From IMG/VR virus record IMGVR_UViG_3300028024_000025, positions 1-23,352 of that record: DNA of 23,352 bases. One strand, written 5' to 3'. Positions 3,501 to 23,352 of the stretch are shown here, in pieces; within the stretch, counting starts at the first letter, position 1; every line of letters begins with the position of its first letter. Source of the stretch: a virus. Position numbers and translations under genes: made by a program. The notes beneath the pieces were generated by a model. That model searched no databases. It saw only the letters and a list, made by a program, of their open reading frames with translations, and had not been told where the DNA came from.

Positions 3501-3805
3501 GCGCAGCCCGCCCCCTGGCGCAGCTGCTGACGGTGCGCGAGTGCGCCGGACCGTTGCGCTGCTCACCCAAGCAAGTGCGCCGGCTGATCGACGGCGGCGA
3601 GCTCAAAGCCGTTAGACTCGGCATCGGGGCGAGGTCGGATCGGGTTCATCCGGACGATCTCGAGGACTACATCAACAGAAGCCGGAAGGCACACGCATGC
3701 CCATCGAGCGCCGCGGCGAAGCCTGGCAGGTCACGGTCAATTGGCACGGTCAGCGCCATCGTCGATCTTCTCGCTACTGGTCCCGCACTCAGGCGAGTGA
3801 AGTAG
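3497..3805 (+). CDS. Excisionase / AlpA-like helix-turn-helix protein
   Basis: A 102-residue protein from GTG 3497 (GTGA overlap, GGGGAAGG upstream). Residues 10-62 form a MerR-like winged HTH of the excisionase/AlpA (HTH_17) type: LTVRECAGPLRCSPKQVRRLI, then GGELKAVRLG and HPDDLEDYINRS. Such proteins bend DNA at att sites to direct excision, or act as local regulators; its place directly before the integrase supports excisionase. The last 36 or so residues are read in a frame overlapping the integrase start by 109 nt and are low-complexity, so only the N-terminal two thirds look constrained. The overlap suggests coupled expression of excisionase and integrase. Confidence 0.7.
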   Translation: MSAARPLAQLLTVRECAGPLRCSPKQVRRLIDGGELKAVRLGIGARSDRVHPDDLEDYINRSRKAHACPSSAAAKPGRSRSIGTVSAIVDLLATGPALRRVK

Positions 3806-4650
3806 AACGCCAGCTCATCAACGAGCTGCACGCAAGCTCAGTCGGTCGGCAGCCCGATCGCACCTTCAATCAAGCCGTCGAAAAGTGGGTCGCGGAGGAA
3901 CTCCCGGCCATCAGTGACCAAGCGCGCGAGAAGTCGCACCTGCGCGCGCTGGCGCCGTTCATGGAAGGCAAGTTGCTGACCGAGGCCCCGGAAGTCGCGG
4001 CCGCAGCGAAGAAGGCGTGGAGCGACCTGTCGGCCGGCACGGTCAATCGCAGGCTTGCAATCCTGCGTCGGCTCGCGAACCTCGCATGGAAGAAATGGGG
4101 CTGGCTCGATCAGCCCGTCGGCCAGCGCGTCAGCCTGCTGCCGAACAAGCACCAGCGGCATGCCTATGCGACGGCAGCGCAGGTCGAAGCACTGGCCCGC
4201 GAGATGCCGCGCGCCGGCGGCTACGTCCTTCTGGCTGCGTACACCGGGATCCGTCGCGGGCAATTGTTGCGACTCACGCGCGCCGACGTCGTGGACAACT
4301 GCTTGAACCTCGGCACCGAAGGCAAGACCGGCCAGCCGCAGCTGGTGCCGCTGCACCCGCGCGTGCGCGCGGTGGCGCGCCGCTTGCCCATCTGCACGGC
4401 GCAGATTCTGCGCGACGAATGGGACGACGCCAGGCGCACTGCAAAGCTCGGCAATCTGCGATTCCACGACCTGCGACACACCGCAGCTTCGTGGTTGTTG
4501 CAGAGCGGCGCGAGCCTTAAGCACGTCTCTGATTTGTTGGGACATTCGGACCTTCGAATGGCCCAGCGGTATGCGCACTTGCAGGTGGCGGACCTGCGTC
4601 GCGCGGTGGCACGGATGCCACAAACCCGCCACAGACGCAAAACGGCCTAG
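3697..4650 (+). CDS. int: Tyrosine-recombinase integrase
   Basis: A 317-residue phage integrase catalysing site-specific recombination between attP and the host tRNA site. The N-terminal part (1-50) resembles an arm-binding domain, residues 55-140 a SAM-like core-binding domain, and residues 155-300 the catalytic domain. Catalytic residues are visible: R186 in YTGIRRGQLLRL, K210, H257 and R260 in FHDLRHTAASWLL, H283 in LLGHSD and nucleophile Y292 in RYAHL. ATG 3697 is preceded by GGAAGG at about 9 nt. The gene lies inside the end of the excisionase-like gene and stops 33 bp before the tRNA-derived attP core, the usual arrangement for a tRNA-targeting integrase. GCCACA repeats lie both in its last codons and beyond the core, where arm-type sites would be expected. 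Confidence 0.93.
   Translation: MPIERRGEAWQVTVNWHGQRHRRSSRYWSRTQASEVERQLINELHASSVGRQPDRTFNQAVEKWVAEELPAISDQAREKSHLRALAPFMEGKLLTEAPEVAAAAKKAWSDLSAGTVNRRLAILRRLANLAWKKWGWLDQPVGQRVSLLPNKHQRHAYATAAQVEALAREMPRAGGYVLLAAYTGIRRGQLLRLTRADVVDNCLNLGTEGKTGQPQLVPLHPRVRAVARRLPICTAQILRDEWDDARRTAKLGNLRFHDLRHTAASWLLQSGASLKHVSDLLGHSDLRMAQRYAHLQVADLRRAVARMPQTRHRRKTA
4617..4633 (+). repeat. Putative integrase arm-type sites, int side (GCCACA x2)
   Basis: GCCACA occurs at 4617-4622 and 4628-4633, an 11-bp helical-turn spacing, inside the last codons of int. The same element recurs on the other side of the tRNA-derived core at 4806-4831. Direct repeats flanking the core on both arms are what arm-type integrase binding sites look like; the assignment is inferred. 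Confidence 0.5.
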
Positions 4651-4996: not shown

Positions 4997-5223
4997 CACA
5001 CAACCTGCTCTACCGGATTCGACAGCGGCCCGAAGGTCTCCTCGACGTGCGGGTCGCGGGCGTCGGCGATGGTCCAGTGCTTCTGGTTCTTGTCCGCGTT
5101 TAGCCTGGCAACGTGCGCGACGATGCGCTCGGTGTAGTCCGAGGCGTAGGCTACGTCGCGGCCTTGGAGATATTCGGGGATGGAGATCAGGCGCATCAGG
5201 AATTCGTCTGTTGGCTTAAACAT
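4996..5223 (-). CDS. Hypothetical protein, last gene of the tail operon
   Basis: A 75-residue protein. The chosen ATG at 5223 overlaps the end of the tailspike gene by 8 bp (ATGTTTAA), whereas the longer open frame would start inside the tailspike. The product begins MFKPTDEFLMRLISIPEYLQ and is a soluble, mixed-charge protein with one long helix (about 28-47). No signal peptide, membrane segment or known motif is seen. Its position after the tailspike suggests a late protein, but nothing shows a role in the virion. The operator-like palindrome 4977-4996 touches its stop codon. Confidence 0.55.
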   Translation of the reverse strand: MFKPTDEFLMRLISIPEYLQGRDVAYASDYTERIVAHVARLNADKNQKHWTIADARDPHVEETFGPLSNPVEQVV

Positions 5224-6961
5224 CAAACTGCCCGAAGGCACGGAGCGTCGAAGTGTTTGTGAAATTTGCTTCGCTCATATTTGCGTGGCTCGCCGCGCCG
5301 CCCTGTGCGAGGTTGAAATTTCCGTCGCCAGTGTTTGCTCTGCCCCCTATCGCGCCAGTGATAGTTGCTAAACTGTCGTAGTAGTAGACGTAAAGTCCGG
5401 AGACAGAAGAGCCGTTAAACGAAAACGGCAGGCCACCGATCTGCGCCGCGCCAGTCGAGCTACCTTTTGCGGTCAGAGTAATGCTCACTTCAAAAAACAC
5501 GCGGTTCCCGACTCTGGTGTATCGACCAGTTTGCGTGCCGTAGGTCATGCCAGTGCTTGCGCCTCCGAATAGAAGTGTCGGAGTAAAAGTCGTGTACCTG
5601 AAATAGTCCAAGACATTCGCTTGGTTCAGAGCAGCATTTCCGAACTGTGCTCCATAAAGTTGAAGGCCCAAGCCCGCCCGCTGCCTATCAATCAGTGTCC
5701 CTGTCCCGCCGTCCGTTATCGGATTCGCTGTGCCGCCTGCATTTGATGGGTGCCACACCTCGTTATATAGGCCACCAACGATAGTCACGCCATTTGTGAC
5801 GGTCGCATCAATGTAGGCTGGTGCAATTCTGTTGTCATTGCCGGTGATTAAGTAAGCATATGTCATGCTCTCGGCTGTTTCTTCGAGATAGCGATTGCCA
5901 TCCCCGCCTAACTGTTGAACACCTGTCGTTCCGCCCGTGCGCTTGTTGTCCCTCCATACGTTCGCATTAACGGCGGCACCATTACCGACCTTGGTGTGAG
6001 TGGTGTTGTTCTCAAAGAGGCAATGTTCAGTTTTGTTGAAATAGGCATCAGACGTGGCGCCAACGCCCATTTGCTGCCCAATGAAAAACCCTTTTATCCA
6101 CGCTCGAAGAACGCTACCGAACTCACTTAAATTTTGGTTGATTCCAATGGAAGCTCCAGCCGCTCCGCTCTTTGAGAGTTTGATGTCCGTGAGAACGGGA
6201 CAAAACAAACTTCCCGGAGTTACAGGGCCAATGGCCGTTCCCGTTCCGGTGTACTGGAGTTCGCATGTGCCCCAACCGTCCCCCACTAATCCTGCCGGAA
6301 GTTTGGTTCCGACCTGATAGAGCAGAGTTGAATCAAACGAATAGGGCGCAGATGCAGCAGGTATGCGAATAATTCTCTGCGCTGCTAGCGCGGCATTTAT
6401 CGCCGCTGAGTTGGTAGCGGCGGACTGCGTTGGGCTTGCCCCAAACTCCAAGATGGTCAATCTAGCACTAACCTCTTTCAGCCACCTTCCTGCCCCACTA
6501 ACTGCCGTGGGCTTGATGACCGTGCCGCCGTTGTCAGTGGCTACGCTTGAGGCGGACCAGTAGAACTGACCTCCGCCGCCGTCTCCTGCGGAGTAGTAGC
6601 CGAGCAGGTTGGCGTCTTGGTGGTCGTACCCGCCGATTATTCCTCGCAACGCCGCAAGATTCACGAACTGGAGACCGCCAACAGCGATGCGATCTTTGGG
6701 ACCTTCGATGCTGGCGAGATTCTGGTCCTTGAGCTGATAGGAATAGTTCTGCTCGGCGATGTAGATGTCGTTCACCGGCCTGCCGAGGCTGTCCGTGCGC
6801 TGCGGATTCGCGATCGGAATCGTCAATCCGACGTCGGAGAATAAGTTCAGAGGATTGGCGACCGGATCCTGCCCGTAGGAGCCAATGTAGATGTAGCCGT
6901 TCAGTACCGGCTTGCCAGAGCTGCTGATGATCTGCTCGATCTGGCGGAGTGCGATGGTCAT
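5216..6961 (-). CDS. P22-type tailspike (receptor-binding protein)
   Basis: A 581-residue trimeric-spike candidate. Residues 1-100 follow the P22 tailspike head-binding domain: GKPVLNGYIYIG, a DPV loop, TIPIANPQ, then NYSYQLKDQNG-like strands that dock the spike on the tail. Residues 121-160 are the GYYSAGDGGGGQFYW / GGTVIKP / GRW connector common in phage fibres. From about 170 (ILEFGASP...NSAAINAAL) a right-handed beta-helix of the pectate-lyase type begins and continues to about 450. Residues 454-581 (FRYTTFTPTL, GRYTRVGNRVFF, GLPFSFNG) are a beta-rich C-terminal module shared by many tail fibres. The likely role is binding or cleaving host surface polysaccharide. No catalytic residues can be assigned. 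GAGGG lies about 11 nt before ATG 6961. The distal part is clearly AT-richer than the neighbouring genes. Confidence 0.85.
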   Translation of the reverse strand: MTIALRQIEQIISSSGKPVLNGYIYIGSYGQDPVANPLNLFSDVGLTIPIANPQRTDSLGRPVNDIYIAEQNYSYQLKDQNLASIEGPKDRIAVGGLQFVNLAALRGIIGGYDHQDANLLGYYSAGDGGGGQFYWSASSVATDNGGTVIKPTAVSGAGRWLKEVSARLTILEFGASPTQSAATNSAAINAALAAQRIIRIPAASAPYSFDSTLLYQVGTKLPAGLVGDGWGTCELQYTGTGTAIGPVTPGSLFCPVLTDIKLSKSGAAGASIGINQNLSEFGSVLRAWIKGFFIGQQMGVGATSDAYFNKTEHCLFENNTTHTKVGNGAAVNANVWRDNKRTGGTTGVQQLGGDGNRYLEETAESMTYAYLITGNDNRIAPAYIDATVTNGVTIVGGLYNEVWHPSNAGGTANPITDGGTGTLIDRQRAGLGLQLYGAQFGNAALNQANVLDYFRYTTFTPTLLFGGASTGMTYGTQTGRYTRVGNRVFFEVSITLTAKGSSTGAAQIGGLPFSFNGSSVSGLYVYYYDSLATITGAIGGRANTGDGNFNLAQGGAASHANMSEANFTNTSTLRAFGQFDV

Positions 6962-6975
6962 TTTTCTGAGCCCTC

Positions 6976-7003
6976 AAAAAGAAAGCCCCGCCTGGGCGGG
7001 GCT
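6976..7003 (-). terminator. Intrinsic terminator after the gp16-like gene
   Basis: On the minus strand AGCCCCGC-loop-GCGGGGCT (8-bp perfect GC-rich stem, 4-nt loop, 6984-7003) is followed by TTTCTTTTT. It lies between the gp16-like stop (7020) and the tailspike start (6961), with no obvious promoter after it, so partial read-through or RNA processing must supply the tailspike message. Confidence 0.85.
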
Positions 7004-7019
7004 CGTGTGCTGGATTGGT

Positions 7020-9065
7020 TTACTTCGCGCCGCTCTGCAGTGCTTCCGGCAGCACGCCGGCGCCAGCACCGAGGCCGGCACCTTCGAGTGCGGGGATTAG
7101 GTTCGGCGCGATGGCGGCGCTCGTGGCGGCCTTCACCGGCGCATTCGTCACGGCAACCGAGAGCGGCTCCGTGAGCATGCCGCCGACGCCAGGCACGAGA
7201 CGACCGAGCGAGCTGATGATCTTGCCAAGCGCATCGGTCGCACGAGCGCCTCCGAGCAGGCCGTTCTTTCGGATGCCTGGCGGGCCCTGCAGCAGCTGCC
7301 CGGCCTTGCCGATCTTCGTGAGCATGTCGACCTCGCTCGGCGAGAACAGCACGTCGAGCTTGCCGGACTGCTGAAGCGAGCGCAGGCCCTTGTTGTAGGC
7401 GTCCTGAAGGAAGATGTCGCCGCGGCCCTTCGTCGCCTGCTCGCGCAGACCGTAAAGCACCTGCCCGCGGATCTGATTCCACGCACCCGGGTCGGCATGC
7501 GTGAGGAAATCGCGCAGCTCCGTGACTTCGGAGACCTTCGCCTGCGGGCCGATCACGAACTTGCGCAGGAAGTCGTCCGGTGCCGTCTCGCTGCCCTGCA
7601 CGCGCACGTCCTCGAGCGCCGGGATGGCGTTCTCGAGCACGCGGCGGGCCTTGGAGGCAGCGCGCGCCTGGCGGAAGAACTCGGCGCCGCGCATTTCGTT
7701 GGAGCCCGTGACGGTGTCGAGCACGCCCTCAAGCTCGCCACGCACGACGCCGAGCGCCTTGTTCGTGGAGCCTGCGCCAGCTGCGATCGGGTTCTCGCGC
7801 GCGTCGTTGAGCGCGTTCTTCAGGTTCTCGGCGACGTCGAGCGTCAGCCCACCCTGACCGTCACGCATATTTGCAAGACGGTTTCGTACTCCGTCAGGCA
7901 GGGCCTCGAATAGGTTCTTGTCCTCGAGGGTGTTGATGACGCCGCGAGCGAACAGGCGACCGTTACCGATGGGCGTGTCGCGTCCAAGCTGATCGCGGGC
8001 AATTCCCCAGAGCGCGTTCTCGTAGGTGTCGCCACGACGAGCGGCATCGGAGAGGGCCTGCATGACGCGCGCGCCGGCCTCCGGATTGTTGAGAGGCGCA
8101 GGCATGTGGCCGCCCATTGCAGCCAGGCGCTGATTGAGCGCGCCCACGGCGTCCTTGTATTGCGAAGCGAGTGCTGCACCGGCGTCACGATGGCGGAGCC
8201 ACTCCTCGAGGCCTGACTGATTCGGGTCCTGCGTGATCTGGCCGAGCGTCGGGTTATCGACGCCCGCATCTTTCAGCGTGGCGAGGTTGCCGAGGAATCC
8301 CTCGGGAATCTCGCCACCCTTGCGGAGGGCCTTGCCGACCTGATCCGTGAGGTATTGCTGAGTGTCTTGGCTGAGCGCGTTCCAGTCAATGCCCTGCTGC
8401 TTCAATGTGGCCTGCAGCTGGATCTGGATGTCCTGCGGTTTCGAGGTGATGTTCTTCAGCGCGCGCACGACACCGGCGCCCGCATCGATCAACTTCTGAC
8501 TGGCAGCGCCGACCGCAGCGCCTGCAGCAGCACCGCCCGCGACCTGCATGCCCTTGTCGCCCCAATAATTCTTGTCGGCGGCGACCGGCTGCGCGGCGCC
8601 GGAGGCCGCACCAGCGGCGGCACCACCAGCGGCGGCAGCCGTGAGGCGCCCTGCGCCAGCAGCGATCGCGGCCTTGCTGGCTGCAACGCCGCCGCCGCCC
8701 GCGGCGAGGTTCACCGGCGACACGACGTTGCCGATGATGCGTGCGACGTCCCAGCCTTCCGGCGGGTGGTAGTCGGCTTCGCGCGCCTTCACGTAATCGC
8801 TGACGGACTGCGCAAGGCCGGTGTCGCCAGCAAAGCCTGGGAGATTCGCGGCTGCGCCGGCCCTGGTGATGAGCTGCGCGGCGCCGAACATCGGGTCGGT
8901 GATGCCGGTGCCAATGCGCGAGGCGACGCTGTCGGCCTGCTGTTTGGCCTGCGGTGGCGGCAGGTTCGCGAAAATCTGCTCGAGCTCCTGCTCGGTCGGC
9001 GGTGAGTCGCCCTCGAGGACGACTTGCCGCCCGCTCTGCTGGTCCTGGACCGTGTAGCGCGGCAT
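7020..9065 (-). CDS. Ejection (DNA transfer) protein, gp16-like
   Basis: A 681-residue protein in the position of P22 gp16, the last ejection protein, slightly longer than P22 gp16 (about 609). The N-terminus MPRYTVQDQQSGRQVVLEGD is a small beta-rich tag seen at the start of internal virion proteins. Residues about 120-200 are Ala/Gly-rich and hydrophobic (AAAAGGAAAGAASGAAQPVA), suitable for membrane interaction during DNA delivery. The remainder is long-helical. The C-terminus (about 610-681) is again Ala/Gly/Val-rich. No lysozyme or transglycosylase motif was found. The ATG overlaps the gp20-like stop by one base (TGATG), indicating coupled translation. Assignment rests on synteny and composition. 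Confidence 0.7.
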   Translation of the reverse strand: MPRYTVQDQQSGRQVVLEGDSPPTEQELEQIFANLPPPQAKQQADSVASRIGTGITDPMFGAAQLITRAGAAANLPGFAGDTGLAQSVSDYVKAREADYHPPEGWDVARIIGNVVSPVNLAAGGGGVAASKAAIAAGAGRLTAAAAGGAAAGAASGAAQPVAADKNYWGDKGMQVAGGAAAGAAVGAASQKLIDAGAGVVRALKNITSKPQDIQIQLQATLKQQGIDWNALSQDTQQYLTDQVGKALRKGGEIPEGFLGNLATLKDAGVDNPTLGQITQDPNQSGLEEWLRHRDAGAALASQYKDAVGALNQRLAAMGGHMPAPLNNPEAGARVMQALSDAARRGDTYENALWGIARDQLGRDTPIGNGRLFARGVINTLEDKNLFEALPDGVRNRLANMRDGQGGLTLDVAENLKNALNDARENPIAAGAGSTNKALGVVRGELEGVLDTVTGSNEMRGAEFFRQARAASKARRVLENAIPALEDVRVQGSETAPDDFLRKFVIGPQAKVSEVTELRDFLTHADPGAWNQIRGQVLYGLREQATKGRGDIFLQDAYNKGLRSLQQSGKLDVLFSPSEVDMLTKIGKAGQLLQGPPGIRKNGLLGGARATDALGKIISSLGRLVPGVGGMLTEPLSVAVTNAPVKAATSAAIAPNLIPALEGAGLGAGAGVLPEALQSGAK

Positions 9066-11033: not shown

Positions 11034-11424
11034 TGCGCACCTCGTAGACGTTCAATTCGCCCATGGATAGCTCCTCGTTCTTGCGCATCCCGAGCGCGCG
11101 GCACATAGCCGAGGCTCGCCGATGCTCTTTTGAATGCGCGGTCCTGATCAGCTTCACGCCGCTGGCAAACAGGTACGCGAAATGCTCGCGTACCAAAGTT
11201 AATGAGCCCTTGCCGACGTCGCCTGGCAGCAGGCAGCCATGCATCTCGGTCAGGTGCTGGCGTACCAAGTACGCGATGAAACCGCGGCCGAGTTTCAGGT
11301 AGTGCGCCGCATCGCCACAGGGCGGAACGAAGTCCGGCTTCTGCGCGCGCTCGAAATATGGCGCAACGGCCGGATGCCGCATCACCTCGAGCACTCGTCG
11401 AAGTGAGGTCTCGCGCTCGATCAT
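11026..11424 (-). CDS. gp14-like protein (DUF2824, GNAT fold)
   Basis: A 132-residue protein in the P22 gene 14 position. The N-terminal VMRHPAVAPYFE segment and the central EMHGCLLPGDVGKGSLTLVREHFAYLF...KLIRTAHSKEHRRASAMCRALGM match the DUF2824/GNAT pattern: the strand-turn-helix with G-x-G-x-x-S corresponds to the acetyl-CoA loop, and the final helix-strand to the GNAT core. P22 gp14 is needed for normal head assembly, but its exact role is unresolved, and acetyltransferase activity is unproven. The ATG overlaps the previous stop as ATGA. It is shorter than P22 gp14 (about 172). Confidence 0.7.
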   Translation of the reverse strand: MIERETSLRRVLEVMRHPAVAPYFERAQKPDFVPPCGDAAHYLKLGRGFIAYLVRQHLTEMHGCLLPGDVGKGSLTLVREHFAYLFASGVKLIRTAHSKEHRRASAMCRALGMRKNEELSMGELNVYEVRNG

Positions 11425-11747
11425 CCGAGGGTCAGTTCGTCACCGAAGAGCGTGAGGTTCAGCGCATTCGCGGCGCTGCCGAACGCCTGGAAGATTTCAG
11501 CGGCATCCATGACCCAGTAGCCATAGAGGTCGATGTAGTCGTTGGCCGGCACGGCCTTGGCCGTCGCGATCTCCGTGCCAGCGGCATCGGCGCCGATGGA
11601 TCCGGTGAAGCCGGCCGCAGCGTTCGTCACATTGGCCACGTGGATCTGCCGGATGATCGTCTTCGTGCCGGCCGGGACGGTGTATTTCGTCGCGGCCGCG
11701 CCGGACAGCAGCCCTGGTCCCGCGAGTCGCTTTGCGGTCTTCGCCAT
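11421..11747 (-). CDS. Putative virion beta-sandwich protein
   Basis: A 108-residue protein with an AAGGAG ribosome binding site about 10 nt before ATG 11747. After a short basic start (MAKTAKRLAG) the sequence is all-beta in character: ATKYTVPAGTKTIIRQIHVAN, then alternating Val/Ile/Thr strands ending LNLTLFGDELTLG. Small proteins of this type (TVPAGT...I.V.N) are common in phage structural clusters and are often called decoration or tail-associated proteins. It sits in the P22 gene 26 (tail needle) interval, but is far too short and has no coiled coil, so it is not a classical needle. Function inferred only from context. Confidence 0.6.
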   Translation of the reverse strand: MAKTAKRLAGPGLLSGAAATKYTVPAGTKTIIRQIHVANVTNAAAGFTGSIGADAAGTEIATAKAVPANDYIDLYGYWVMDAAEIFQAFGSAANALNLTLFGDELTLG

Positions 11748-20347: not shown

Positions 20348-20548
20348 CTAAATCCCTGATTCCGCTGATGCCGCTGATGCCTGGTCGTTGCGCAGATGGC
20401 CGCTGCTGGTATGTGCAGCGGCCTCCGGATTCACCATCAGCTCGGTCTGCGCATACAGCAGCAGCGCTACGATCGCAGTGGCGATGACCTGCATGGACGC
20501 AAGCGCGAGCAGCGCCCATGCCATGCGACGGTCAGCCTTGCGCGCCAT
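20348..20548 (-). CDS. Small single-span membrane protein
   Basis: A 66-residue protein: basic start MARKADRRM, one membrane segment at about 10-32 (AWALLALASMQVIATAIVALLLYA), then a polar, Ser/Ala-rich tail of about 33 residues. It lies 3 bp after the holin-like gene and 12 bp before the terminase small subunit. The position suggests a lysis-associated or accessory membrane protein, for example a second holin or antiholin, but there is no spanin-like coiled coil and no lipobox. Family not recognised. Confidence 0.6.
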   Translation of the reverse strand: MARKADRRMAWALLALASMQVIATAIVALLLYAQTELMVNPEAAAHTSSGHLRNDQASAASAESGI

Positions 20549-20551
20549 GGC

Positions 20552-20776
20552 TCAGCTGTGCGGCGAAACGTCCGGGCCCTGCGACGCTGGCTGCACCAGC
20601 GGACCCCTAGCCGTCACGCGGCCCCAGAGCGCGATCAGCAGACCGACCACCTGCACGAGGTCATCGGCGAAGCCGCCGGCGTCGATCGAGATGCCATGCT
20701 TCGCGAGTAGCGGCGCGACGACAGCGATGAGCAGGCCCCAGATGGTCTTGCTCGTGAGAATCGACTTACTGTCCAT
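20552..20776 (-). CDS. Holin-like membrane protein
   Basis: A 74-residue protein. ATG 20776 is preferred over TTG 20791 because GAGGAG lies 7 nt before it. Residues 10-26 (KTIWGLLIAVVAPLLAK) and 40-56 (DDLVQVVGLLIALWGRV) form two hydrophobic helices separated by a short turn HGISIDAGGF, with a polar C-terminal tail. This is the arrangement of small two-span phage holins, and the KTIWGLLIA start is typical of holin-like proteins near terminase genes. Such proteins form the membrane hole that times lysis. No endolysin gene is adjacent within the window, which lowers certainty. Confidence 0.65.
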   Translation of the reverse strand: MDSKSILTSKTIWGLLIAVVAPLLAKHGISIDAGGFADDLVQVVGLLIALWGRVTARGPLVQPASQGPDVSPHS

Positions 20777-20787
20777 CGTGGTACTCC

Positions 20788-21342
20788 TCAATTGGCCGGC
20801 GAGATGCCGGTGACTGGATGAACCTCCCAGGCGGTTGCGCGCCAGAGCCGCTTCGCGTGGCCCGTGTGCACGGCGTTGTCCCAGTGCTCTTCGTCGAAGA
20901 ACATCCAGCCGTCGACGGTGACGCGCTTGCCCTTGAGCTTGCGCAGCTGCGCGACCGTGCCGACGCTCGGCTGGAAGGCCGGCGTGACCTCGACGATCAG
21001 CCCGTTCTTCGGGTCGTCCTTCGGATGCAGCCCCAGAACGATGTGCACGTCGCGCGCGGACGCCGAGTGGCAGTTCGCCGTCTCGAGGCCGCCGCGCTTC
21101 ACGAGCAGCACGTAGCCGGTGAGGTGCGCGCCCTGGCTGTCCTTCCAGCGCTCACGGTCATTGCCTGGCGCGAGGATCGCCTCGAGCGTGATGCTGGAAT
21201 CGATGCCAGGCGCGAGCGTGCGGTTCTTCATCTCGTCGAGCGCCCATAGCCGCTGATCCGGCGAGTCGCCGTGCGGAGGGCACACAGCCGCCGCGGCGAG
21301 CAGCGGCAGCGCCAGCAGGATCGCCGCTATGCGCGCTTGCAT
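20788..21342 (-). CDS. Exported hypothetical protein (possible OB-fold)
   Basis: A 184-residue protein; the start is ATG 21342, overlapping the previous gene by 16 bp, because MQARIAAILLALPLLAAAA is a clear signal peptide. The mature part has exactly two cysteines (C21, C91). The C-terminal half, ARDVHIVLGLHP, IVEVTPAF, LRKLKGKRVTVDGWMFFDEEH and LWRATAWEVHPVT, has the strand pattern of an OB-fold-like domain. I recall similar sequences in bacterial exported proteins of unknown function. No nuclease active site is visible. C21 lies at the predicted cleavage region but the preceding residue is Val, so a lipoprotein is unlikely. It probably acts in the periplasm or outside the cell. Confidence 0.65.
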   Translation of the reverse strand: MQARIAAILLALPLLAAAAVCPPHGDSPDQRLWALDEMKNRTLAPGIDSSITLEAILAPGNDRERWKDSQGAHLTGYVLLVKRGGLETANCHSASARDVHIVLGLHPKDDPKNGLIVEVTPAFQPSVGTVAQLRKLKGKRVTVDGWMFFDEEHWDNAVHTGHAKRLWRATAWEVHPVTGISPAN

Positions 21343-21752
21343 AGACGGAACGCTGCGCTGGGAGCCACGGTGGAGCGCTCCGTGGCCGGAGGCGTGATCG
21401 TGTTCGCGCCCGCAACGAGCGTCGTGCCGCTGATGGCCGTTGCTCCTGGCGCTGTGCCGGCCGTCGTCACGAGGTTCGTTCCGGTCACGCTGTACGTCGG
21501 ACCGGCTGCATCGGTCGTGTTCGTCGCGCGCCCGGTGCCGAGCGTTGCGCCGGCGGTGCCGCTCGCTGCCTGCGCCCAGAGCGAGTAACCCTGATAGGTC
21601 GTGACCTCGGTCCAGCCGGAAGGACATGTGGTCTTGTACGACAGCATCAGGATGTTGGCCGGGATCCCGACGTTGGTGGCGCCCGTGTAGGCCTGCGGAT
21701 ACGCCGAAGCGCAGAACAGCAACGCGAAGGCGCAAAGCATGGCGTTCTTCAT
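21327..21752 (-). CDS. Exported protein with tail-collar-like C-terminus
   Basis: A 141-residue protein; ATG 21752 shares its A with the upstream TGA (TGATG). Upstream in-frame codons belong to a shadow reading of the preceding gene. Residues 1-19 (MKNAMLCAFALLFCASAYPQ) are a signal peptide with a likely ASA cleavage site. The mature part starts with IPANILMLSYKTTCPSGWTEV, the CPxGW pattern of phage tail-collar or short-fibre domains. A Thr/Gly/Ala-rich stretch follows, and the end APSAAFRLCKRA resembles the last strand of collar domains. C43 and C138, one at each end of the mature domain, could form a disulfide. A virion-type fold on an exported protein is unusual; function unknown. Confidence 0.65.
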   Translation of the reverse strand: MKNAMLCAFALLFCASAYPQAYTGATNVGIPANILMLSYKTTCPSGWTEVTTYQGYSLWAQAASGTAGATLGTGRATNTTDAAGPTYSVTGTNLVTTAGTAPGATAISGTTLVAGANTITPPATERSTVAPSAAFRLCKRA

Positions 21753-22300
21753 CAGAGGGCTCCCCAATAGAAGGTGGCGTGAACCGAGGCCGTCTTCGTG
21801 AGGCAGCCCGTCGAGCTGTAGACGACGGTGATGCCGGTCGAGAACGCCACGGGGAACTGCAGCCAGTTGAACGGATTGCCCGAGCTCGCCGCGATCGGCA
21901 CGCAATACGCCGGCGTGACCGCGCCGTCTCCTGGTGCGCTGGTCGCGTTGAAGACCATCAGGAATCCGGCGTTCGTGTCGCTGGTGACAGTGAGCCAGAA
22001 CAGGTTCCCTGCGCTGGCCTTGATCACGTGACTCGATTCGAGCGCAGTCGAGTTGCCTGGCGCGACGCCTTGGGCCGTCGGCGAGCCGCTCTTGATATTG
22101 ATGTCGAGCGCGTTGCTCGTGACCGTGACGTCCTGCTTCGTGTTCGTCGTGCCGGTCGAGCGGCCCCAGAGGGTGCCATCGCCGACGCGCGGGAAACCGT
22201 CGTTGACCTGGTCGAACGCATAGCTCGCGCCGAAGAACGCCGGGAACGCCAGAACGACGCCCAGCAGCAAGGCCGCGATGCGGCCGCGATTGTTTTTCAT
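21752..22300 (-). CDS. Exported protein with virion-like beta domain
   Basis: A 182-residue protein with GGAAGG about 9 nt before ATG 22300. MKNNRGRIAALLLGVVLAFPAFFGASYA is a strong Sec signal peptide with an SYA cleavage site (28/29). Residues 85-182 (TALESSHVIKASAGNLFWLTV, NAGFLMVFNATSAPGDGAVTP, FPVAFSTGITVVYSSTG) follow the pattern of small beta-sandwich proteins common in phage structural operons (LKASAGTL...VFNATSAP). The only two cysteines, C133 and C166, are in this domain and could pair after export. Phage particles assemble in the cytoplasm, so an exported version probably acts at the cell envelope. A short CCGGTG/CACCGG hairpin (22318-22332) precedes the ribosome binding site. Confidence 0.65.
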   Translation of the reverse strand: MKNNRGRIAALLLGVVLAFPAFFGASYAFDQVNDGFPRVGDGTLWGRSTGTTNTKQDVTVTSNALDINIKSGSPTAQGVAPGNSTALESSHVIKASAGNLFWLTVTSDTNAGFLMVFNATSAPGDGAVTPAYCVPIAASSGNPFNWLQFPVAFSTGITVVYSSTGCLTKTASVHATFYWGAL

Positions 22301-22714: not shown

Positions 22715-22932
22715 TGCCACTTGATCCGATTGAAGATCCGCCGCAGCACATACGAGCGCACGAGCGAGATCGCGGTGAAGACGAGGCCGATGTTGAAGGC
22801 CACGCGCGCGGTGAGCGCATCGAAGCCGAATATCGGCAGGATGAGCATGTTGGCCATCCAGTTGATGCTGAAGCCGACGACGATATTCGCCACGGCCTCC
22901 ATCACCGAGCCGAGCTTCGACTGGCCGCTCAT
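22699..22932 (-). CDS. DUF7220-type small membrane protein
   Basis: A 77-residue protein from ATG 22932, overlapping the metallophosphoesterase stop as ATGA; the longer open frame into that gene is not used. It begins MSGQSKLGSVMEAVANIVVGFSINWMANMLILPIFGF and continues with a second hydrophobic helix VAFNIGLVFTAISLVRSYVLRRIF, ending with basic residues RIKWQWANR. The KLGSxxEAxxNIxxGFxIN start is typical of the DUF7220 family of small phage membrane proteins. A holin-like role is possible but not shown. Confidence 0.75.
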   Translation of the reverse strand: MSGQSKLGSVMEAVANIVVGFSINWMANMLILPIFGFDALTARVAFNIGLVFTAISLVRSYVLRRIFNRIKWQWANR

Positions 22933-23352
22933 ACCGTCACCGCCTGGTTGCAGTAGTCGATCGTGTCCTGATCGAGCACGCTGACCAGCTGCGGCCACAG
23001 CAGGCGACCGCGGACGAAACGCAGCACCACAAACCCGCTGCGCCAGTTGCGCGGGTTGTCCTCCATGTAGTTCAGGAACTGCGGGCCGTTGGGCTCCGCC
23101 AGCGTTCCGGTATCGACGCCCCAGCGCGTGCCGTTGTAATCGTCAAACGGCGTGACCTTGAGGCTGTGTAGGTGCCCGGTGACCGTGGTCTTGCCGGAGT
23201 TCACCGTGTTGTTGTGCGTCGCGTGAATCCCGCCCTTGTAGCGGTGCTTCACCACGACTTCGTCATTGATCCAGACCGACCAGCACGGGCGCCAGCGCGG
23301 GAAATGATCCTTCAGGTGCACGCCGTGCATCTGCGCGTACTCGGGCGCCACC
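22929..23352 (-). CDS. Metallophosphoesterase (calcineurin-like), C-terminal part
   Basis: The gene runs off the right edge; 141 codons are visible. VTGHLHSLKVTPF contains the GHxH metal-binding motif near the C-terminal end of calcineurin-like phosphoesterases, followed by the conserved YNGTRWGVDTGTLAEP segment. GGIHATHNN before it supplies a further His-rich metal-site region. The first conserved blocks (DxH, GNHD) must lie outside the window. Phage members are thought to act on nucleic acids or nucleotides. It ends in an ATGA overlap with the DUF7220-type gene. A start at 23351 is not meant; the true start is upstream. Confidence 0.85.
   Translation of the reverse strand, partial: VAPEYAQMHGVHLKDHFPRWRPCWSVWINDEVVVKHRYKGGIHATHNNTVNSGKTTVTGHLHSLKVTPFDDYNGTRWGVDTGTLAEPNGPQFLNYMEDNPRNWRSGFVVLRFVRGRLLWPQLVSVLDQDTIDYCNQAVTV

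Follow-up and report, generated by a model that had tools for sequence, protein, structure and literature searches.

Predicted export of a jelly-roll phage domain with a matching cysteine pair, encoded next to a holin-like gene in an uncultured tailed phage

In tailed phages, the cytoplasm is regarded as the site where virion proteins fold and assemble. Phages also encode small exported proteins that act in the cell envelope, such as the exclusion lipoproteins Cor and Llp. XepA of the Bacillus subtilis prophage PBSX is an exported beta-sandwich protein of the lytic cassette which, according to the accessible text of its description, is absent from phage particles and toxic in plate assays (PMC6834076). 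Furthermore, genes with Sec signals and of unknown function have been noted as striking in phages of Porphyromonas gingivalis (PMC10367356). The latter follow the Bacteroidetes Q rule, and the accessible part of that study describes neither a virion-type domain nor a cysteine pattern, unlike the locus considered here. In the literature that we searched, in which the coverage of subscription papers was thin, arrays of exported virion-type domains are not described.

We analyzed a 23,352-base viral record of IMG/VR (IMGVR_UViG_3300028024_000025) from an uncultured tailed phage, hereafter the window, which, at only this length, is probably a fragment of a genome. Using computational approaches, we determined export-type N-termini, cysteine pairs, family relations and the co-occurrence of signal and cysteine pair for three consecutive genes, denoted A, B and C. 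The features of this locus are as follows.

21752–22300, minus strand: gene A, 182 aa, exported-type (open reading frame and Sec-type N-terminus)
22217–22300, minus strand: predicted signal peptide of A, residues 1–28, cut after SYA (the heuristic scorer preferred a cut after residue 18)
21755–22069, minus strand: jelly-roll beta-sandwich domain of A, about residues 78–182 (AlphaFold model, pLDDT mostly >90)
21902–21904, minus strand: Cys133 codon of A, present or absent together with Cys166 in 49/49 aligned members
21803–21805, minus strand: Cys166 codon of A, present or absent together with Cys133 in 49/49 aligned members
21327–21752, minus strand: gene B, 141 aa, exported-type, with a CPSGW...C end (open reading frame and Sec-type N-terminus)
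21702–21752, minus strand: predicted signal peptide of B, residues 1–17 (N-terminus scoring)
21612–21626, minus strand: CPSGW motif of B, residues 43–47, including Cys43 (sequence and motif relatives)
21339–21341, minus strand: Cys138 codon of B (sequence)
20788–21342, minus strand: gene C, 184 aa, exported-type OB-fold protein (open reading frame, alignment and model)
21283–21342, minus strand: predicted signal peptide of C, about residues 1–20 (N-terminus scoring)
21280–21282, minus strand: Cys21 codon of C, invariant in 41 aligned members
21070–21072, minus strand: Cys91 codon of C, invariant in 41 aligned members
20552–20776, minus strand: holin-like gene directly 3' of C (weak PHROG holin match, E 0.014, and a ribosome-binding site at the junction)
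20348–20548, minus strand: 66 aa single-span membrane protein past the holin-like gene, possibly an inner spanin (sequence only)

The open reading frames bear out the coordinates and frames of the initial annotation, and A-B-C is an overlapping run that continues into a holin-like gene. The TGA stop of A shares the tetranucleotide ATGA with the ATG start of B, the start of C lies 16 nt ahead of the end of B, and a GGAG past the stop of C is followed by the holin-like ATG at 20776. Downstream of the holin-like gene and the short membrane protein are the terminase and other late genes, and A is preceded by a dATP/dGTP diphosphohydrolase-like gene and a DUF7220 gene. The C-terminal part of a metallophosphoesterase-like protein (22929–23351; PHROG match, E 1e-6) runs into the end of the window. 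On the plus strand, a tyrosine-recombinase-like integrase gene was read from the sequence at 3697–4650, and the phage is therefore probably temperate. Exported adhesins or exclusion factors could then serve the lysogen, for which lambda Lom, an exported protein encoded past the tail tip gene, offers a precedent. However, A-B-C follows the strand order of the late genes and has lysis and packaging genes beside it, and we regard such lysogenic conversion as very unlikely.

All three proteins start with N-termini of the Sec type, with predicted cuts at MKNNRGRIAALLLGVVLAFPAFFGASYA/F in A, MKNAMLCAFALLFCASA/Y in B and MQARIAAILLALPLLAAAA/V in C. The signals were called with a crude in-house heuristic scorer and compared with 5000 shuffles of each protein's own N-terminus; the score of the real sequence was reached by no shuffle of A, by 8 of B and by 6 of C. 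Among the other genes of the window, just two short membrane proteins, namely, the one at 20348–20548 and the product of the holin-like gene, scored as signals. The initial annotation had assigned Sec signals to all three proteins and counted exactly two cysteines in each mature part, and both claims agree with our predictions: the pairs are C133/C166 in A, C43/C138 in B and C21/C91 in C, whereas the additional C7 and C14 of B both fall inside its signal. The pairs are above chance, given that they are conserved as pairs in the families of A and C. Thus, the sequences support one disulfide-capable pair in each predicted mature protein, with the disulfide itself presumably formed. None of the three carries a lipobox: LLFC in B has F before Cys14, AAVC in C has V before Cys21, and the signal of A is free of cysteines. 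Accordingly, A-B-C is not a lipoprotein set, which sets it apart from Cor and Llp.

The AlphaFold model of A matches uncharacterised phage proteins in BFVD (E 2e-9), the best match being a protein of Ralstonia phage RSK1, and weaker fold matches include viral spikes, turrets and XepA. In a search of the PDB with the same model, there was no match at E 0.001, and the closest entries were varied viral and non-viral beta-sandwiches. Searches with the sequences of A and B against Pfam, PHROGs, NCBIfam, PADLOC and the PDB yielded nothing usable, with no match to the PADLOC anti-phage defence profiles at E 0.1; tblastn against cultured phages returned nothing useful even at E 10, and plasmid records contained no A-type match to L145.

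The similarity to XepA deserves consideration, because the exported A, B and C might all be lysis helpers which disturb the membrane or wall before or together with holin action. XepA and its relative YomS, from PBSX and SPbeta, are beta-sandwich proteins of phage lytic cassettes, as A appears to be, and XepA is exported (PMC6834076); A resembles XepA in its signal, with export judged from sequence, and in its location beside a holin-like gene. In the fold comparison with A, XepA ranks among the better matches (Z 6.9, rmsd 2.9, 88 residues aligned), A-B-C runs straight into the holin-like gene, and homologs of C are found near endolysins (see below). In addition, Caulobacter phage KSC has an A-type gene adjoining its SAR endolysin and spanin genes, and Synechococcus phage DSL-LC07 has one adjoining a lysozyme gene, in both cases encoding a protein without a signal. 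However, the same Z of 6.9 is reached by many unrelated beta-sandwiches, the regions in which exported A-type genes are found are in many cases those of the tail or head and not lysis cassettes, and the collagen-like and glycine-rich fibre domains described below are atypical of lysis parts. Moreover, XepA is a two-domain pentamer from a phage of a Gram-positive host, with no disulfide pair described in the accessible text (PMC6834076), and we found no sequence relation between A and either XepA or YomS, nor a sequence match in the PDB. A role of all three proteins in lysis is thus doubtful, albeit a serious contender.

To characterize the family of A, we searched IMG/VR with a DNA pattern built on two motifs of A, KAxxGN and FxTGI, and recovered 89 stretches, many of which are clearly related to A; for instance, pairwise tblastn of A against one of them (L130) gave E 9e-30. 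Both motifs and the sequence relation hold for A itself, which matches the family profile at E 1.3e-34, being part of that profile. A is therefore, by sequence comparison, a member of a large jelly-roll domain family that is widespread in uncultured phages. A gene at 11421–11747 of the window, considered as a cytoplasmic copy of A, was rejected for want of a profile match.

Within this family, the predicted export signal and the cysteines go together. In the motif-defined set, all 27 exported members have at least 2 cysteines in the domain, versus 4 of the 22 non-exported ones, and in the profile set, which covers all fetched viral loci, the respective counts are 31/33 and 5/25 (Fisher p of 6e-10 and 5e-9, values inflated by the kinship among the members). 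The start codons were picked to favour a signal, which should weaken this contrast, not create it. In the profile table, one member with a doubtful signal call (L107) is scored as exported; two (L057 and L114) are of the exported type but lack the domain pair, and of these L114, with a plausible signal and no cysteine, is tabled as non-exported. The number of cysteines in the mature protein is even in every exported member of both sets, with no odd count. The export state changed at least three times along the well-supported (starred) branches of the A-type tree and 7 times on the best tree; an independent-pairs test gave p 0.25, with just three pairs on supported branches, so that significance was out of reach. 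The two cysteine columns of A are filled together or not at all in every one of the 49 aligned rows, and other subfamilies have complete pairs elsewhere in the fold (columns 99/145, 86/160 and 86/162), so that complete pairs occur at no fewer than three places. The sequence evidence thus says that virion-type domains were repeatedly placed behind predicted export signals, with cysteine pairs gained.

In annotated phage records, none of the six A-type relatives has a signal or two domain cysteines (at most one). The proteins of cultured phages S-SRP01, S2B, Cr30, KSC and DSL-LC07 belong to the same jelly-roll family as A by sequence but, unlike A, lack a signal and carry no more than one cysteine in the domain. 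Some of these genes are located in structural clusters; in Synechococcus phage S-SRP01, the gene lies between the capsid assembly and capsid genes. In Caulobacter phage Cr30 (L206, 2901–4996), the A-type gene is directly ahead of an annotated beta-1,4 xylanase gene. The presence of signal-less relatives near structural genes supports the view of the initial annotation that A is virion-like. Sequence comparison thus identifies A, and probably also B, as a version of a domain usually seen on phage tails or heads, to which an export signal and a matching cysteine pair have been added.

Exported A-type genes also tend to have exported neighbours. Exported genes were found at 14 of 36 scored positions adjacent to exported members versus 1 of 23 adjacent to non-exported ones (5/19 versus 0/8 at position -1 and 9/17 versus 1/15 at +1). 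Many exported A-type genes reside among tail, baseplate, portal and head genes. In one genome (G007), the tape measure and J-like tail tip genes are followed by three exported fibre-like genes and a homolog of C (names assigned by eye), and the first of these fibres, of 1276 aa, ends with an A-type domain (E 2e-26). In another (G006), the C homolog is preceded by genes for two exported proteins, namely, a fibre of 1841 aa and a glycine-rich protein. Thus, the order of exported fibre-like genes followed by C is also found outside the window. Separately, consecutive exported fibre-like genes, two of them with A-type domains, form a long run at positions 3903–9621 of L139, and three consecutive exported proteins of the virion-decoration type are encoded on the minus strand of G003 (7355–8812, L061), a record that also holds a C homolog. 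The recurrence of such genes across uncultured phages strengthens the proposal of the initial annotation that the export of these domains would be a system of its own.

The gene contexts raise the possibility of two-compartment assembly, whereby true fibres or decorations in need of disulfides would fold in the periplasm and dock on particles only at lysis. Late docking is established for the tail fibres of phage T4 in extracts, and exported proteins occupy the fibre position in other genomes, including the complete fibres of 1276 and 1841 aa; an exported collagen-like relative of B that matches tail-fibre families (L160, see below) would also fit. On the other hand, the window contains a fibre gene without a signal (5216–6961), and the literature that we searched offers no precedent for Sec-exported fibres of tailed phages, which leaves this scenario unlikely. 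By eye, neither A nor B resembles the product of 5216–6961, so they are not evident copies of the window's own fibre.

In protein B, the CPSGW motif lies near the start of the mature part and a cysteine near its end. Two scans of IMG/VR for CPxGWx(D/E)V revealed five proteins that resemble B beyond the motif (L159, L160, L162, L164 and L173), each with a predicted export signal and grouped here with B as CPxGWTEV...C proteins; because the scans were built on a cysteine, they cannot demonstrate an association between signal and cysteine. The C-terminal cysteine of B recurs in L159 and L160, L162 has LILCKP further in, and L164 and L173 end with the fetched stretch. L160 is an exported collagen-like protein which matches tail-fibre families, partly via the collagen repeat. 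The initial annotation had considered B to be virion-like with a tail-collar-like CPxGW end. B is indeed probably virion-like, judging from the CPxGW...C end that it has in common with the fibre-like L160, whereas the resemblance to the tail collar domain found no backing in Pfam or PHROG profile matches.

Gene C has a different background. It first matched a plasmid of Gemmatirosa and the 642 kb genome of an uncultured phage, and the profile built for C detected 45 bacterial loci, from Bacteroidota, Acidobacteriota, Gemmatimonadota and other groups, compared with eight viral contigs in IMG/VR. This distribution led us to reject C as a phage invention. Both cysteines are invariant in the alignment of 41 rows, which also shows the motifs KNR, E, DxH and WRATxWE, and nearly all members have a signal or membrane anchor upstream, as judged by eye. 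The model of C (pLDDT 95) is an OB fold, with Z values of up to 9.4 in comparisons with known OB folds. PDB 3f1z, a putative nucleic acid-binding lipoprotein from Klebsiella, is likewise an exported OB fold (111 residues aligned with C, Z 9.3), but the two are only 8% identical and the Z is tied with those of tRNA synthetase OB domains. The charged residues of the family (L009–L053) are strictly conserved, no Pfam model reaches its cut-off for C, and two members (L032 and L039) have an extra N-terminal part with an SH3-like look. The chromosomal neighbours of the bacterial homologs are varied, and a tally of neighbours revealed no shared partner, so that placement in prophages or in a constant operon was rejected.

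In viral genomes, homologs of C occur near endolysin genes, with an amidase immediately ahead in L002 and GH108 genes nearby in L004 and L005. Near the GH108 endolysin and C homolog of L004 are also an exported protein with a right-handed beta-helix look by eye and no Pfam match (5631–6986) and a small exported protein (6983–7297). By its sequence relations, C is the phage version of exported OB-fold proteins that form a widespread, uncharacterised family in bacteria, and transfer from bacteria to phages is the likelier direction. The initial annotation's view of two virion-like proteins with export signals is supported, whereas C is not virion-like, and its place in a virion-derived set is not supported. 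As hypothetical functions, the initial annotation had raised receptor masking, superinfection exclusion or a secreted decoy.

The explanation that we favour, tentatively and at somewhat less than an even chance, is that A and B are free, adhesin-like envelope proteins that block surface sites, and that C is an envelope protein on the side of lysis. A and B would be domains of the fibre or head-decoration type that a Sec signal now directs to the periplasm and a disulfide holds together. Their expression is probably late and shared with the holin on one transcript, and both would fold in the periplasm and then work as free, non-virion proteins, in the envelope as well as outside the cell. Their most likely role would be to take up surface sites on the dying cell and its debris, thereby keeping progeny or competing phages from adsorbing there. 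C, a presumably captured host envelope protein beside the lysis genes, would probably aid or time the breakdown of the envelope. Two observations weigh against free proteins: exported fibres of 1276 and 1841 aa are costly as decoys and have the look of whole fibres, and many exported A-type genes have tail and head genes around them, as would be expected of genuine virion parts. Much of the evidence is also compatible with an XepA-like lysis role or with true fibres that mature in the periplasm, and both stay in contention. In more general terms, it is about equally probable as not that tailed phages commonly make a second set of fibres or decorations through Sec, oxidised in the periplasm, either as free blockers or for docking after lysis, with disulfides repeatedly marking this route.

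The switch within the A family between signal-less, cysteine-poor and exported, cysteine-paired members is a clear sign, at the level of sequence, that phages use the periplasm for fibre-like proteins. A signal, an even number of cysteines and a virion-type domain make up a simple rule by which receptor blockers, adhesins or late-docking fibres may be sought in uncultured phages. The recurrence of this combination across uncultured phages suggests that the delivery of tail-like proteins into the cell envelope is frequent among phages.
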